Shown here piece by piece: positions 9,445-21,568 of a stretch of 40,553 bases of DNA. The position numbers were made by a program, and so were the translations under genes. Under the pieces are notes generated by a model. That model was given only the letters and a program-made list of their open reading frames with translations. It did not search any database and was not told the origin of the DNA. Every line of letters begins with the position of its first letter. Within the stretch, counting starts at the first letter, position 1. This DNA is from an archaeon (GTDB taxonomy: Archaea; Iainarchaeota; Iainarchaeia; Iainarchaeales; DTGL01), in the NCBI GenBank assembly GCA_029258755.1, contig JAPDKC010000003.1, forward strand, positions 1 through 40,553. The letters run 5' to 3'.

Positions 9445-9609
9445 AAGGGTTAGGGGGCTTTGGATGGTACCGGCGGAAAAGCAGGGCGATGAGCGTTTGA
9501 AAAGGATTTATGCTGAACTAAAACAAGGCGGCAATATCGTTAGCGATGATTGCCCTGCTTTTCAAAAAGCCGGTCTAATTCTGAAATCACCTCACCGACC
9601 CTAACCCTT
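9445..9609 (+). ncRNA. Candidate structured RNA, about 165 nt
   Basis: Three perfectly complementary arm pairs nest inside one another: 9445-9455 with 9599-9609 (11 bp), 9469-9474 with 9569-9574 (6 bp) and 9477-9487 with 9552-9562 (11 bp). A further hairpin lies at 9530-9554 (GGCAA/TTGCC, then ATCG/CGAT around TTAG), slightly competing with the third pair. The ends are base-paired and a TATA box sits at the right distance upstream, as in stable RNA genes. I see no signature of tRNA, 5S rRNA, RNase P RNA or SRP RNA. A 46-codon reading frame also lies inside (see 9464-9604), so a small mRNA with strong structure is the main alternative. Confidence 0.5.
9464..9604 (+). CDS. Possible 46-residue small protein within the structured RNA
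   Basis: An ATG at 9464 opens 46 codons to a TAA at 9602-9604. The product starts MVPAEKQGDERLKRIYAEL, a plausible helix, and ends KAGLILKSPHRP, with one cysteine. A G-rich stretch (TTAGGGGG) lies about seven bases before the ATG, only a loose match to a ribosome-binding site. Codon choice resembles neighbouring genes. The same bases form long perfect inverted repeats, so either the RNA structure or the peptide could be the selected product, or both. I cannot decide from sequence. Confidence 0.3.
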   Translation: MVPAEKQGDERLKRIYAELKQGGNIVSDDCPAFQKAGLILKSPHRP

Positions 9610-11337: not shown

Positions 11338-14300
11338 CTATCTTTGACATGCTTTCAGAACCTTAAGGGTTCTAGGTTCTTCTTTTTTACCTGATTTCAT
11401 TCTGAGTATTGCAATAATTACTAAAATCGTCAAGAAGGCAATTAAATATAGAGTAATACTATCTTCCTCGGAAAGCGTTGCTAAACCGGATTTTGCAACA
11501 ACAAGTGCTTTTAGATAATTTCCAGCCAGCAATTCTTTTTTTGCAAGCTTTAGAAGCTCACTATTTGCGTGAGCATCCTCTAAAAGCTTTGTATAGTAAA
11601 GCGCTTCTTCTTTCAAAGAGGTCTCAAGTTCTGCTAGTTTCCTGTCTAGATGCAATAGCTTGCGATACTTCTTATCGAAATTTTCTTCTTTTGCAATTGC
11701 AATCGCTTTTTCTAGCATATTCTGCTTAATAAGTTGATTTACTTTTCCCCATATAGGATCCTCAGCAAGCTCTGCTTCTTTAACCAAATTTTTAAGCATG
11801 TGCTGATCGAACTTTGGCATATAATTTGCTCCCAACAGCTCATCATTTGTTACGCTTGAAAGCTGCTTCTCCAAAAAATTTAACCTAGAATAAAAGCTTG
11901 TGCTAAATTGGTTAATAAAATCAATTGCTTTTAGCAGATATGCTACGCGACTTTGGATCTTCAGATTTAAGCTTCTGTTTAGATCTTCTAAGCGCTTCTC
12001 CATAGAGTTCAATGCCTGCTTCGCTTCAGGAAGCTTAGCTTTACCTATATAGTTTAGCAAGCGTTCATAAGTGGCTTTTATATCCTCAATTGCAATTTCA
12101 ATATTAGAATCTCTAAGCCCTGTTTCTGTAGCTTTCTTCTCTAAATCGCTTGTTCTTTTCATTAGGTCATCGGCAAGCTCCGCAAGCTTTTCTGCAACAT
12201 CCTTGGCCTGAATATGTAAAAGCTTGTTATAAGCTTTTTCTAGAATCTGCAGCGCTTTTTTCCTATCTTCGCTAAAAAGCTTCTCCGCTTCTGCCAGCTC
12301 TTTTTTGGCATGCGTTATGTTTTGCTCTAAATAAGTAAAATACTTGATAAGCCCGAGCTCTTTTGCTTTTTCTAACTTGTTATTCAGCTCATTGAGCTTT
12401 CCTTCCAAGGATTGCTTCGCAAACAAATATCTTTCCGTTATGCTAGCATACTCCTTTTCCTCATTTTTAAGCAACAATGCTTGCTCATAGAGCTTCTGCA
12501 CCTCGCTCAGCTTTGCATTAGAAGCATGCCTTGCCTTAAGAAGAAGCTCTTTTGCTTTAGGAGCGAATTCTTTAGAGTCAAGCAAACCTTTCAGAATATA
12601 TCTTGTTTTGGCTATAAGAGCTTGTTTAAAACTGTTGTAATCCTCTATGGTCAATTGCAAATAAATCTCTTTTTTCTCGAGCTTATCTAAGCTAGGAAGT
12701 ATCGCAACTAAATGCGATTTGCTCTTCTCTAGCTTTATTGTTTTCCCCAAAGCATCGTAAGCATTAGCTTCAATTATATTGCTAGTTTCTAAAGGAAGAA
12801 ATAGCATAACGTTTCTTGCGGAAAAAGGGATCTTATTTTCTATTGAGCATAAGTAAAGAATTTTTGCTGTATTTGAATCCCTTTCCTCTGAAAGAATCTT
12901 TAATGAGATTCTTACTGGAGCGTAAATTGTGTAAGAAACCTCAAATGTGCTATTTGGTTTTACATCTGTTAAAAAGGCGACAATAGCATTATTATCTGTC
13001 TTTAGCTCGATCGCTAAACCTCTATAAAAAAGAATTGCTCTGTGCCCAATATTGGGAAACTCAAGCTTAAGCTTTGGTATTGTTGCATTGCTTTTTATTT
13101 TGTATGCTTCGCTTATCCTTGCTATATTAGAACTCATAGTAACGTTTACTTTTTCTCTTTTCAGCTCTATATTCTGAAGGGAGGAAAAGCTTGCTAATGT
13201 TTTGCCTTTTGGCAGAGATTTGAGAAAAAGACGCAGTGTTTTTGCTTCACACTCTAGCGCTTCAACATTGGCGCTTGCGGAAATAAGCTTACATCTTGAA
13301 AGGCCTTCTGGAAATGTTAGGACTATGCTATTATCAATATCAAGGAAAGGGTTTGTGAAAGAAAGTACGAATCTGCTCTCTAAGACCGTTTTAGGTTTTT
13401 TATGGCTCAGCACAGCTAGCTCTGTTGGTGCCGCAACGAGCGAATAGTGTTCCTTCACATAGCTTACAACAAATTCCTTTACCTTCTCCTTTGTTTTTGA
13501 GTAAAGCGTATTTATCTTATAGCGCAATGAGTTTATGTATGGCATTGCTTTTTCAAGCAGTATTTTATTGGCGAAGAAAAAGCCACCTAAATTAGCAATT
13601 TCTTTATCTTCTACATAACCTTGCTCCTTCAGAAAACTCCAGAGCTTTTTTATTTCTACATACCTTTCTTCTAATTCCTCTATACCATATTCTCCGCGCA
13701 AATGTTCTTCAACAAAAGAGAGCAATAAAGGACAGCTTTTTAGAGGCTCTGAGCTTGAGCTAAGCATAGAGTACTGTTCCGCGAGCTCCGGATCCTTAAC
13801 AAAGTTTATAAGCATGCTCAACCTTTTGTAGCAGTTGCTTTCTAAAAGCTTTGCTTTGTTTCCTTCCTTTCTAGCCAATCTTTCTTTTGCTTCTAGCTCA
13901 ACCTTAACAAAGCTTGCACAGTAGGCAAGCTTTAAGGATTCGTTGGCTTGTTTGAATTTTTCCCTAAGCATTTCAAGCTCGAAGGTTGTACTAGCGTCAT
14001 ACGCCTTTATGTTAGCGTTGCTCAGCCGCTTATTGCATTTATCCAGAAGGTAGTAAAAAGATTCTCTTAAGCTTGCAAGCGATCTAAGCAATTCATCTGC
14101 TTCAAGATTTAGGTTCTTTAGCGCATGTACCTTTTTGCCTAGAGTTAGTGCATGCTTGCTTTCTTTGCTTCTTATCTCATCAAGTTTTGCCGAAAGGGAA
14201 GCTAGCATAGACTCTGCTCTTAGATGAGCATCCGCTAATGAATCAAATGCTAGCGGTTCGTTAGAAATCAGCAAAGGTTCATTAAGCAATGCATGCAAGC

Positions 14301-15345
14301 TTGTGATAAAATTGGAATCAGCATACCTAAACCCTTCGTTTTCAAAAAAGCTTGCTTGCTCTCTAAGCTTGTTAAGCTTGCCCTCTAACGAGTTCTGTAG
14401 CTTGCTGAGCTCCTCCTTCAAAAACATCCTTTTAAGCGAATCCTCTTTAACAAGAGATGCAAATTCGCTTGCCAAAGAATCCTGCGAAGCGGCAATATCG
14501 GAAAGCAAGCTCAAAAACTCACTTGGCGGTGTTTCCTCTATATAAGAAAGCGCTCTTTCCGCTGTTTTTATGCTCGAAAGTATGCTTGCATAATAGCTTA
14601 CTAAATTTGCGAAAACAGGTAAATAGGAGCTTTTGCCAATACCTTCCAGCTCGAAATTAGCTGCAACATCAAGCATCATCTCAAAAAGGGATTTTTCCTC
14701 AATTATCTTCAGGTCAGCGTTTCTAAAGGCTTTGCGCCTACTTATCTTTTCTGCTAAGCGTCTTGCATGGGAAGCATAGCTGTTAAGCTCTAAAAGCTTG
14801 TTACTCCTTATTTGCCTTACATTATCGCTCAACTTTATGTAAAATCTGTAAAGCGGTTCTTCCTTCATTAGGTTTATATCCTGATTTTCGAGATCCATTT
14901 TTTCAAAGATTATGAATTTGAAGCTTGTTTGCAAAGCATTGTCGGCTTCCTCAAATGCTTTTTCTACATGATAGCGCAATTCGTTTGCTTTTTTAGGCAA
15001 TTCACGGAAACGCTCTTGAAGGCAAAGTTCCCTTAGTTCTTTAGCGTCTTCTATTGTTTTGCGATAGTAAAGCCATGATTTAGCAAGATGGTTTTTGTAG
15101 TGGTAAAGTAAGCGTTTGCTTTCGAAAGGCAAGCTTTGGCTGGGAAAATTGAAAAGCTTAGATTCTACAAGCTCAAAGCATTTTTCATTTGTATTGCAGC
15201 TAGGAATCTGTGCCACATCGTAAGTCGCTAGCGAAAGGCATTTCTGCTTATAGAATTCTACTTGTTCATACTCGATGCATGCAGAAAGAAATAAAAGCAA
15301 GACAATAGAAGCTAAAGCAAGCTTCCCAACCAACTCTCTTAGCAT
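11338..15345 (-). CDS. Giant coiled-coil surface protein, possible lipoprotein
   Basis: A 1335-residue protein of unknown function. The N-terminus has a hydrophobic signal ending in LSAC (Cys about 22), a lipobox-like site. About 25-640 is nearly all charged helix with coiled-coil pattern. About 640-900 is strand-rich, with Ig-like character. About 900-1290 returns to long coiled coils, and about 1299-1317 is a transmembrane helix followed by a basic cytoplasmic tail. The protein could be tethered at both ends and form a stalk or loop over the membrane. The body has few cysteines. The reading frame is intact across four kilobases, so it is under selection. The adjacent Ig-like protein may be a partner; that is only proximity. 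Confidence 0.8.
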   Translation of the reverse strand: MLRELVGKLALASIVLLLFLSACIEYEQVEFYKQKCLSLATYDVAQIPSCNTNEKCFELVESKLFNFPSQSLPFESKRLLYHYKNHLAKSWLYYRKTIEDAKELRELCLQERFRELPKKANELRYHVEKAFEEADNALQTSFKFIIFEKMDLENQDINLMKEEPLYRFYIKLSDNVRQIRSNKLLELNSYASHARRLAEKISRRKAFRNADLKIIEEKSLFEMMLDVAANFELEGIGKSSYLPVFANLVSYYASILSSIKTAERALSYIEETPPSEFLSLLSDIAASQDSLASEFASLVKEDSLKRMFLKEELSKLQNSLEGKLNKLREQASFFENEGFRYADSNFITSLHALLNEPLLISNEPLAFDSLADAHLRAESMLASLSAKLDEIRSKESKHALTLGKKVHALKNLNLEADELLRSLASLRESFYYLLDKCNKRLSNANIKAYDASTTFELEMLREKFKQANESLKLAYCASFVKVELEAKERLARKEGNKAKLLESNCYKRLSMLINFVKDPELAEQYSMLSSSSEPLKSCPLLLSFVEEHLRGEYGIEELEERYVEIKKLWSFLKEQGYVEDKEIANLGGFFFANKILLEKAMPYINSLRYKINTLYSKTKEKVKEFVVSYVKEHYSLVAAPTELAVLSHKKPKTVLESRFVLSFTNPFLDIDNSIVLTFPEGLSRCKLISASANVEALECEAKTLRLFLKSLPKGKTLASFSSLQNIELKREKVNVTMSSNIARISEAYKIKSNATIPKLKLEFPNIGHRAILFYRGLAIELKTDNNAIVAFLTDVKPNSTFEVSYTIYAPVRISLKILSEERDSNTAKILYLCSIENKIPFSARNVMLFLPLETSNIIEANAYDALGKTIKLEKSKSHLVAILPSLDKLEKKEIYLQLTIEDYNSFKQALIAKTRYILKGLLDSKEFAPKAKELLLKARHASNAKLSEVQKLYEQALLLKNEEKEYASITERYLFAKQSLEGKLNELNNKLEKAKELGLIKYFTYLEQNITHAKKELAEAEKLFSEDRKKALQILEKAYNKLLHIQAKDVAEKLAELADDLMKRTSDLEKKATETGLRDSNIEIAIEDIKATYERLLNYIGKAKLPEAKQALNSMEKRLEDLNRSLNLKIQSRVAYLLKAIDFINQFSTSFYSRLNFLEKQLSSVTNDELLGANYMPKFDQHMLKNLVKEAELAEDPIWGKVNQLIKQNMLEKAIAIAKEENFDKKYRKLLHLDRKLAELETSLKEEALYYTKLLEDAHANSELLKLAKKELLAGNYLKALVVAKSGLATLSEEDSITLYLIAFLTILVIIAILRMKSGKKEEPRTLKVLKACQR

Positions 15346-19889: not shown

Positions 19890-21101
19890 ATGATGCCAGA
19901 AGTAAAGCCAGTGCTGCTTAGCGGGACCAAGCTGCTTTGCAATAGAACAGCCAGCGATGTGTTTGCCATAGATATCTGTGTTAATTTCGGCTCAGCTTTA
20001 GAAAAGAAGCCTGGCATTGCTCACTTCATAGAGCATATGTTCTTTTCTGGAACAAGAAGATTTTCGCGGAAGGAGATTGCAAGCAGAATAGATTCTGTAG
20101 GCGGTATTCTAAATGCATTTACATCAAGGGAATATACGCACTACTACATAAAAGTTAAAGCAGAGCACTATAAGCTTGCTATAGATACGCTATTCGAATG
20201 TCTGAACAATTGCGAGTTTTTTCCTAAAGAGCTCGAATTAGAGCGAAGGATAATTTTGAATGAAATAAAGGATATGCAAGATACTCCTGTGAAGTATGCC
20301 ATCTCAGAGTTTACAAAGCTTTGCTTACCAGGTGCTTTTGGCAGAGCTATTATAGGAAACGAAAAAAGCGTACTGAGGCTTAAAAGGGTTGATCTGCTAA
20401 AGGAGTTTAAGAGAACTCATTGTAAGAGCAACATTATGCTAAGCATAGCTGGCCCAAAAGATGTTAGTAGCTATGCAAAAAGGATCGCCTTTCATTTAGA
20501 AAGCTTGAGGGAAGGCAAAAGACTGAAGCTTAAAAAATGCAAGGCAAAACCTAAGAGGAAAGAAAAGCTTATCGAGCGTGATGTTAAGCAGGCGCACCTT
20601 TGCATAGGCTTTCCAGCAGTTAGTTCAGCTGAGCACGGCTATGCTGCTTTTTCTTTAATAGAAGCAATTCTCGGCGGTGGCTTAAGCTCAAGAATCGTTT
20701 ATGAAGTAAGGGAAAAACGCGGCTTAAGCTATGTTGTTGATCCGTTTTTAGAAGCTGAACCCAAACACGGTCTATTTGGAGTTTATCTAACCACAAGGCC
20801 TGAAAAAGTTAATAAAGCTAAAGATATTATAATAAAAGAATTAGAAAAATTAAGAGAGGGAAAAATAACTGCAAAAGAGCTTAAAAGAGCAAAAAATTAC
20901 ATAATGGGAACAAAAACCCTCGAATGGGAGGATTCCTTCGAGTTAGCCAAAGATTCCGCATTTGCGGAGTGTTCTGGGTGGACATGGAAGGACTATATTA
21001 AAACAATCAAAGAGCTTGGTGTTAAAGAGCTTAGAGATGTAGCGCAAGAGCTCATTCCAAGCGAGGAATTCTGTATGGTTGCAATAATGCCTAGGCACTA
21101 A
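19890..21101 (+). CDS. M16 family zinc metallopeptidase
   Basis: A 403-residue insulinase/pitrilysin-family peptidase of the processing-peptidase-like length. The inverted zinc motif HFIEH (His45, Glu48, His49) and the distal ligand Glu125, 76 residues later, are all present, so the N-terminal domain should be active. The C-terminal half carries the REKRGLSYVVDPF substrate-binding motif of the family. There is no signal peptide. M16 peptidases of this type are mainly bacterial and mitochondrial, so lateral acquisition is possible. The ATG at 19893 is an equally good start. Confidence 0.92.
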   Translation: MMPEVKPVLLSGTKLLCNRTASDVFAIDICVNFGSALEKKPGIAHFIEHMFFSGTRRFSRKEIASRIDSVGGILNAFTSREYTHYYIKVKAEHYKLAIDTLFECLNNCEFFPKELELERRIILNEIKDMQDTPVKYAISEFTKLCLPGAFGRAIIGNEKSVLRLKRVDLLKEFKRTHCKSNIMLSIAGPKDVSSYAKRIAFHLESLREGKRLKLKKCKAKPKRKEKLIERDVKQAHLCIGFPAVSSAEHGYAAFSLIEAILGGGLSSRIVYEVREKRGLSYVVDPFLEAEPKHGLFGVYLTTRPEKVNKAKDIIIKELEKLREGKITAKELKRAKNYIMGTKTLEWEDSFELAKDSAFAECSGWTWKDYIKTIKELGVKELRDVAQELIPSEEFCMVAIMPRH

Positions 21102-21156: not shown

Positions 21157-21165
21157 GTTTTAAAC
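21157..21165 (+). promoter_or_regulatory. TATA-like box of candidate RNA gene at 21187
   Basis: GTTTTAAAC sits between AAATGT (21151-21156) and ACATTT (21164-21169), an inverted repeat. Its centre is about 26 bases before the start of the folded RNA element, the normal archaeal TATA spacing. Confidence 0.45.
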
Positions 21166-21186
21166 ATTTCTGCTCCACAAAATCTT

Positions 21187-21275
21187 TTGGGTGTGGTGGT
21201 TGGGGCCTCGGAGGCGCGCAAGCGCTAAGGTCGTAATGACCTGAATCCGAGGTTGGGTGCTCAACCCACACCCGC
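21187..21275 (+). ncRNA. Candidate structured RNA, about 87 nt
   Basis: A GC-rich island in AT-rich DNA that folds by perfect complementarity. The outer stem pairs 21189-21196 with 21266-21273 (8 bp). The next stem pairs 21206-21212 with 21246-21252 (7 bp). Inside it are two hairpins: 21213-21217 with 21222-21226 around a GCAA tetraloop, and 21228-21232 with 21238-21242 around five bases. The paired ends and upstream TATA-like box fit a stable RNA. It is tRNA-sized, but lacks U8, a TTCRA T-loop and any normal D-arm, and is not a box C/D RNA by eye. The exact ends are inferred. I cannot assign a family. Confidence 0.55.
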
Positions 21276-21464: not shown

Positions 21465-21500
21465 ATATATGCCGTATAAGATAGATTATACGGCATATAT
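21465..21500. repeat. Perfect 15-bp inverted repeat
   Basis: ATATATGCCGTATAA (21465-21479) is exactly complementary to 21486-21500, separated by GATAGA. It could be a hairpin in RNA, an operator for a dimeric protein, or a recombination site; no gene lies close enough to decide. Confidence 0.7.
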
Positions 21501-21568
21501 TAGGTGCATTCTTTTATTTTGCTATAAAGGTTCTAGCAAGAGAGTTATGTATAAATTGGCAATATTGC

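Follow-up and report, generated by a model that had tools for sequence, protein, structure and literature searches.

The 40,553-nt stretch of DNA analysed here (the window) carries an 85-nt structured non-coding RNA gene at positions 21189-21273 of the forward strand. This RNA appears to belong to a new, real and conserved family among the orphan structured RNAs. We consider it probable that it is a stand-alone small RNA gene, one of the two paralogous loci at which an undescribed RNA family occurs in this archaeal order, and that its RNA most likely acts in trans, bound by protein. This reading is built on a computed fold, its conservation and covariation, a recurring promoter pattern and the finding that several genomes carry both loci. 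The window corresponds to contig C8 in the 1.21-Mb genome of a Candidatus Diapherotrites archaeon (G000), whose gene content by Pfam and NCBIfam is consistent with an archaeon (geranylgeranyl reductase, an archaeal D-aminoacyl-tRNA deacylase and the mevalonate pathway).

The RNA was conspicuous in both composition and stability. Its GC content is 64%, compared with 39% for the window overall, and no open reading frame of at least 60 codons overlaps it. The minimum free energy is -46.6 kcal/mol (z = -4.92), which none of 200 shuffles equalled. Thus, the GC-rich stable fold in AT-rich DNA that a preliminary description had reported was confirmed. That description had given a 119-nt span (21157-21275), for which z is -3.0; the ends found here lie inside it. 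When both strands of the window were scanned (20,234 segments), 21189-21273 was the lowest-energy 85-mer of all, and the best frame of the scan began exactly at 21189 on the forward strand.

The predicted fold has the four stems described before, arranged as an outer stem (P1), an asymmetric loop, an inner stem (P2) and a three-way junction with two hairpins (H1 and H2). P1 has 8 bp, with the 5′ strand GGGUGUGG at 21189-21196 (invariant in the four copies of the genus) and the 3′ strand CCACACCC at 21266-21273, and is extended inward by GUUGGG/GCUCAAC. On the 5′ side of the internal loop, or P1 extension, lies the motif GGUUGGG (21198-21204), which is conserved in relatives. P2 also has 8 bp and pairs GCCUCGGA (21205-21212) with UCCGAGGU (21246-21253). 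The hairpins have 5 bp each: H1 occupies 21213-21226, and H2 (AGGUC-GUAAU-GACCU, 21228-21242) is followed by an unpaired GAA at the junction. The GCAA tetraloop that had been pointed out is present in H1 of the window RNA but is not conserved, as relatives carry UAAC or UAAU in its place. The identity of this loop is therefore unimportant.

A TATA box, TTTAAA, was found at 21159-21164 on the forward strand, centred about 27 nt before the first paired G, where a TATA-like box had indeed been noted. Each of the four genus copies retains it, as does the sister-genus genome G005, while much of the flank differs among the genus copies. From its position, the start was placed at the first G of the RNA. 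The window RNA would thus be a stand-alone gene transcribed from its own promoter, as judged from sequence.

The gene matched no known family. Covariance models of Rfam 15 at the gathering threshold gave no matches for the window RNA and 12 relatives, and a lax Rfam search gave only chance matches, none of which overlapped it. A known Rfam family was therefore rejected. The lack of tRNA hallmarks, also noted earlier, held as well: ARAGORN predicted no tRNA gene there, and the covarying structure is a three-way junction rather than a cloverleaf. A missing tRNA was rejected on the ARAGORN result and on the 38 tRNA matches found elsewhere in the genome. Some likeness to tRNA exists in size, in being a stable RNA gene that starts at its first paired base, and in the CCA with which most family members outside the genus end. 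In contrast to tRNA, the family RNA has no D, anticodon or T arms, and the CC of its CCA is paired. Full-text searches of the papers available for this analysis found no description of small RNAs of Diapherotrites. To our knowledge, little work has been done on the small RNAs of DPANN archaea.

Copies of the RNA were found in four of the five genomes of the genus (G000, G001, G003 and G004), each directly downstream of an M16 peptidase gene and on the same strand. In the window, this YfmF-like gene, identified by Pfam and NCBIfam, lies at 19890-21101 (forward strand) and is not part of the RNA gene. It is the constant upstream neighbour of the RNA, in the same order in G001, G003, G004 and G005. 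A DNA search of relatives showed 88% identity to the window RNA for G001 and 80% for G004; the G003 copy was added by model R1. The differences within the genus sit in loops or preserve pairs. P2 shows a compensatory change from U-A to C-G between genomes, H2 one from A-U to G-C in G004, and in G003 one side of P1 is altered with the pair kept as G-U. The RNA is missing from both the M16 and the CoaE locus of G002, the fifth genome of the genus, so it is not strictly essential, has moved, or is absent from that assembly. The RNA of G005, in the sister genus, occupies the same place beside M16, has the same orientation and is preceded by a similarly spaced TTTAAA. The two RNAs share GGUGUGG...CCACACC, GGUUGGGA, the two hairpins and the inner stem, and little other sequence.

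A loose search with a P1 pattern then found G037 and G024. These two share GGTGTGGTTGGGA, more than the GGTGTGGT and closing strand that the pattern had required. Model R2, built from G005, G037 and G024, found nine more genomes (best E = 2.4e-9), and model R3 was built from the resulting 12 sequences. Among the 389 genomes searched, matches to R3 were confined to this order; weak matches in G026, G058, G053 and G055 were judged to be chance on sequence and fold, and two bacterial matches of the genome pattern did not fit R1. That the other families of the order are only patchily covered is partly due to fragmentary MAGs and to a strict filter in the first-look search.

Since MAFFT misplaced the hairpins when aligning G005 with the genus copies, the order-level structure was tested on the model-fitted alignment of 12 sequences. 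Changes on both sides were seen in 22 of 33 pairs, which none of 500 shuffles matched, and 53 cells showed double changes against 18.5 expected. In total, 88.5% of cells pair; when partners were slid by one to three columns, the proportion dropped to 33-49%. Fitting to a model favours pairing, but the size of the compensatory change makes it unlikely to have come from model fitting alone. Of the outcomes that would have refuted the preliminary description, neither a match to a known family nor a lack of covariation was observed. In a held-out test, a sequence-only profile of 11 copies from the CoaE/KaiC locus, built without G005, found the M16-locus copy of G005 (E = 8.8e-6), with a match running end to end on the correct strand.

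R3 itself scored the window copy at 11.5 bits (E 2.9), which is not above background, so the link to the order-wide family runs through G005. Homology of the window RNA to this family is supported, though less directly, by synteny, strand, P1, GGUUGGGA and junction architecture by way of G005, and not by the model score. The window RNA has an xGGYG...CRCCx outer stem, a three-way junction with H1 and H2, and a TATA box at about -28, as the family does, and GGUUGGG is common to it, to G005 and to almost every CoaE/KaiC-locus relative from other families. With the same degree of support, 21189-21273 can be regarded as the M16-locus paralogue of the order-wide three-way-junction RNAs.

In other families of the order, the RNA sits between divergent CoaD/CoaE genes and a gene for a KaiC-like ATPase, the latter often preceded by glycosyltransferase genes. 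Within the window's family, a second form of 62-85 nt was found beside CoaE in G005, G006, G001, G003, G004 and G000, and probable CoaE-side copies were found in G020 and G021. In G000, this short three-way-junction paralogue is at about 20586-20649 of contig C14 (locus L111, about 2149-2212). The short forms have lost the GGUUGGG loop but still show the GGUG/CACC ends, the junction and a hairpin resembling H2. Five genomes (G000, G001, G003, G004 and G005) each carry a copy at both loci. Because the CoaE/KaiC locus is more widespread, it is probably the ancestral one.

At the CoaE/KaiC locus, in most genomes, the RNA is 88-165 nt upstream of the KaiC-like gene and on the same strand, an arrangement that would suit a cis-acting, riboswitch-like leader of neighbouring genes. 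We regard such a leader as quite improbable. The window has no forward-strand gene start within 1.2 kb downstream of the RNA, and the position varies among M16, CoaE and KaiC contexts. G023 has kept the RNA in the absence of KaiC, and in G013 other ORFs separate the RNA from KaiC. Runs of T occur in the RNA-to-KaiC spacers, and separate TATA-like boxes lie near the start of the KaiC-like gene in several genomes; together with the changes of neighbour, these argue for independent transcription units. A riboswitch of KaiC or of M16 was accordingly rejected on gene context. The two ORFs between the RNA and the KaiC-like genes in G013 (locus L087, 6126-7747) appear by eye to be an IS200/IS605-type transposase and a TnpB-like partner.

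We compared the promoters of 22 RNA copies with those of 20 tRNA genes from G000, G005, G012 and G013. In 19 of the 22 RNA copies, the first base of a TATA-like box falls between -27 and -32. GTTTG occurs at about -52 in 11 of them, compared with a shuffle mean of 0.8, and in none of the 20 tRNA promoters from these four genomes. GGTTTG at about -53 is common to many RNA copies; the window copy's own promoter does not have it, and in the other genus copies GGTTTA stands at a comparable upstream position. Many copies (loci L068-L079, L093 and L094) carry an element like GGTTTGnnTTGCRAA, which precedes the TATA box by about 25 nt. This element may be the binding site of a dedicated transcription factor.

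These promoters also bear on whether the feature acts as RNA at all. Because P1 is nearly a palindrome, folding is possible on both strands, as would be expected of a DNA-level inverted repeat, a terminator or the end of a mobile element with no RNA function. Such an origin seems highly improbable, for the promoter is strand-specific, the orientation relative to M16 is kept, covariation extends across the order and one strand scores better. Moreover, each genome has one or two copies, and no relatives were seen among the viral contigs examined. Pattern matches on viral contigs, among the 80 and 39 loci listed, failed the models, and a viral or mobile origin was rejected.

The stem with an asymmetric internal loop and an upper stem resembles that of archaeal H/ACA guide RNAs. 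A degenerate H/ACA or C/D guide for modification of rRNA or tRNA would fit loosely with the size, the internal loop and the archaeal origin, and two paralogues with different loops could mean two targets. The family RNA differs from archaeal H/ACA RNAs, however, in having no ANA box and an extra junction hairpin, and the loop is missing in the short paralogue. The 3′ flanks, read directly (GCTCCCAAT, AATCCATTT, AATCCTATT, AACCCATTC and CTTTTGTCT), show no ANA box immediately following P1, the lower stem. No tandem G-A kink-turn was seen in a by-eye reading of the RNA sequences. The genus copies have no C box (RUGAUGA), the D-box CUGA occurs only in G000 and G001 and is lost in G003 and G004, and no Rfam guide family matches. 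Consequently, there is little likelihood that the RNA is such a guide.

Stable RNA acting in trans within a protein complex is instead favoured by a stand-alone gene in no more than two copies, a fold running from start to end, and a promoter of its own. RNA polymerase would start at the first G, directed by the TATA box 27 nt upstream, so that an unprocessed 5′ end would be expected on the RNA. The transcript would fold into the outer stem, the inner stem and the two hairpins around the three-way junction, and would then act as a protein-bound RNA, either as a component of an RNP or as a regulator of a protein. Conservation is stronger in the 5′ strand of P1 than in the strand it pairs with, which drifts through G-U pairs. 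As this strand and GGUUGGG are conserved beyond their partner, something appears to read that strand or its shape. The recognition site may be P1 together with the purine-rich GGUUGGG strand, with the variable hairpins as stabilisers. The loop cannot be the sole recognition site, since the CoaE-locus copies of the window's genus lack it.

The same conservation could also mean that GGUGUGGUUGGG, the purine-rich 5′ strand, opens to base-pair with C-rich target messages or with a stable RNA, making the gene a trans-acting antisense RNA. Conservation of this strand does exceed the needs of pairing, and the upstream promoter element suggests regulated expression. However, a stable helix hides most of the motif. 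In 12 genomes, with the RNA gene itself set apart, the perfect complement CCCAACCACA was not enriched over a reversed control, and it is absent from G000. The lack of enrichment lowers the antisense explanation while leaving room for short or imperfect pairing, and we consider it unlikely.

If the protein-bound, trans-acting RNA is the correct reading, it might be taken further. Tentatively, and with rather more doubt than confidence, we suggest an order-wide RNA-protein particle assembled on the three-way-junction RNA, duplicated in one family, driven by a dedicated promoter (GGTTTG at -53 and TATA at -28) and with a function that no other RNA is known to have.

Among known RNAs, the Hgc RNAs of Pyrococcus and Methanocaldococcus are orphan archaeal stable RNAs, short and GC-rich, which were found by composition and conservation. 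Compared by description and through Rfam only, the present RNAs are like them in being short, GC-rich, structured genes conspicuous in AT-rich archaeal DNA, and unlike them in having a three-way junction with a GGUUGGG strand, no Rfam match and, in the genomes searched here, a distribution within one order. The orphan structured RNAs obtained from comparative genomics of bacteria and archaea (e.g. PMC2864571) are similar in their covariation, conserved gene context and unknown function. The present family differs in its stand-alone promoter and conserved upstream element, and was not matched through Rfam, where such motifs are collected. The family is now defined by a structure backed by covariation, by its promoter signature and two loci, and by the genomes listed for it, which makes its expression and partners directly testable. 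Reading raw sequence can thus reveal an unannotated RNA gene missed by Rfam.

The preliminary description had paired this RNA with an element at 9445 as a set of undescribed stable RNAs. That part stood for the window RNA, of about 85 nt, on its conservation, covariation, conserved promoter and lack of an Rfam match; the 9445 partner showed no detectable family resemblance, and the second family member in G000 lies on another contig (C14), beside CoaE. The element at 9446-9607 (forward strand) itself has a long stable fold (MFE -65.4, z -5.2) and no Rfam match. It has ends of the GGGUUAGGG/CCCUAACCC type, a TATA-like box (TTTTTATATAAG) upstream and the C/D-like strings GAUGA and CUGA. Elsewhere in the window, a 1335-codon ORF with no Pfam match occupies 11338-15345 of the reverse strand. 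A near-perfect inverted repeat, ATATATGCCGTATAA...TTATACGGCATATAT, lies at 21465-21503, within the long interval that separates the RNA from the following gene, and a similar repeat, ATATTGCAGTATAA...TTATACTGCACTATAT, was found near the M16 gene in G002 (L026).
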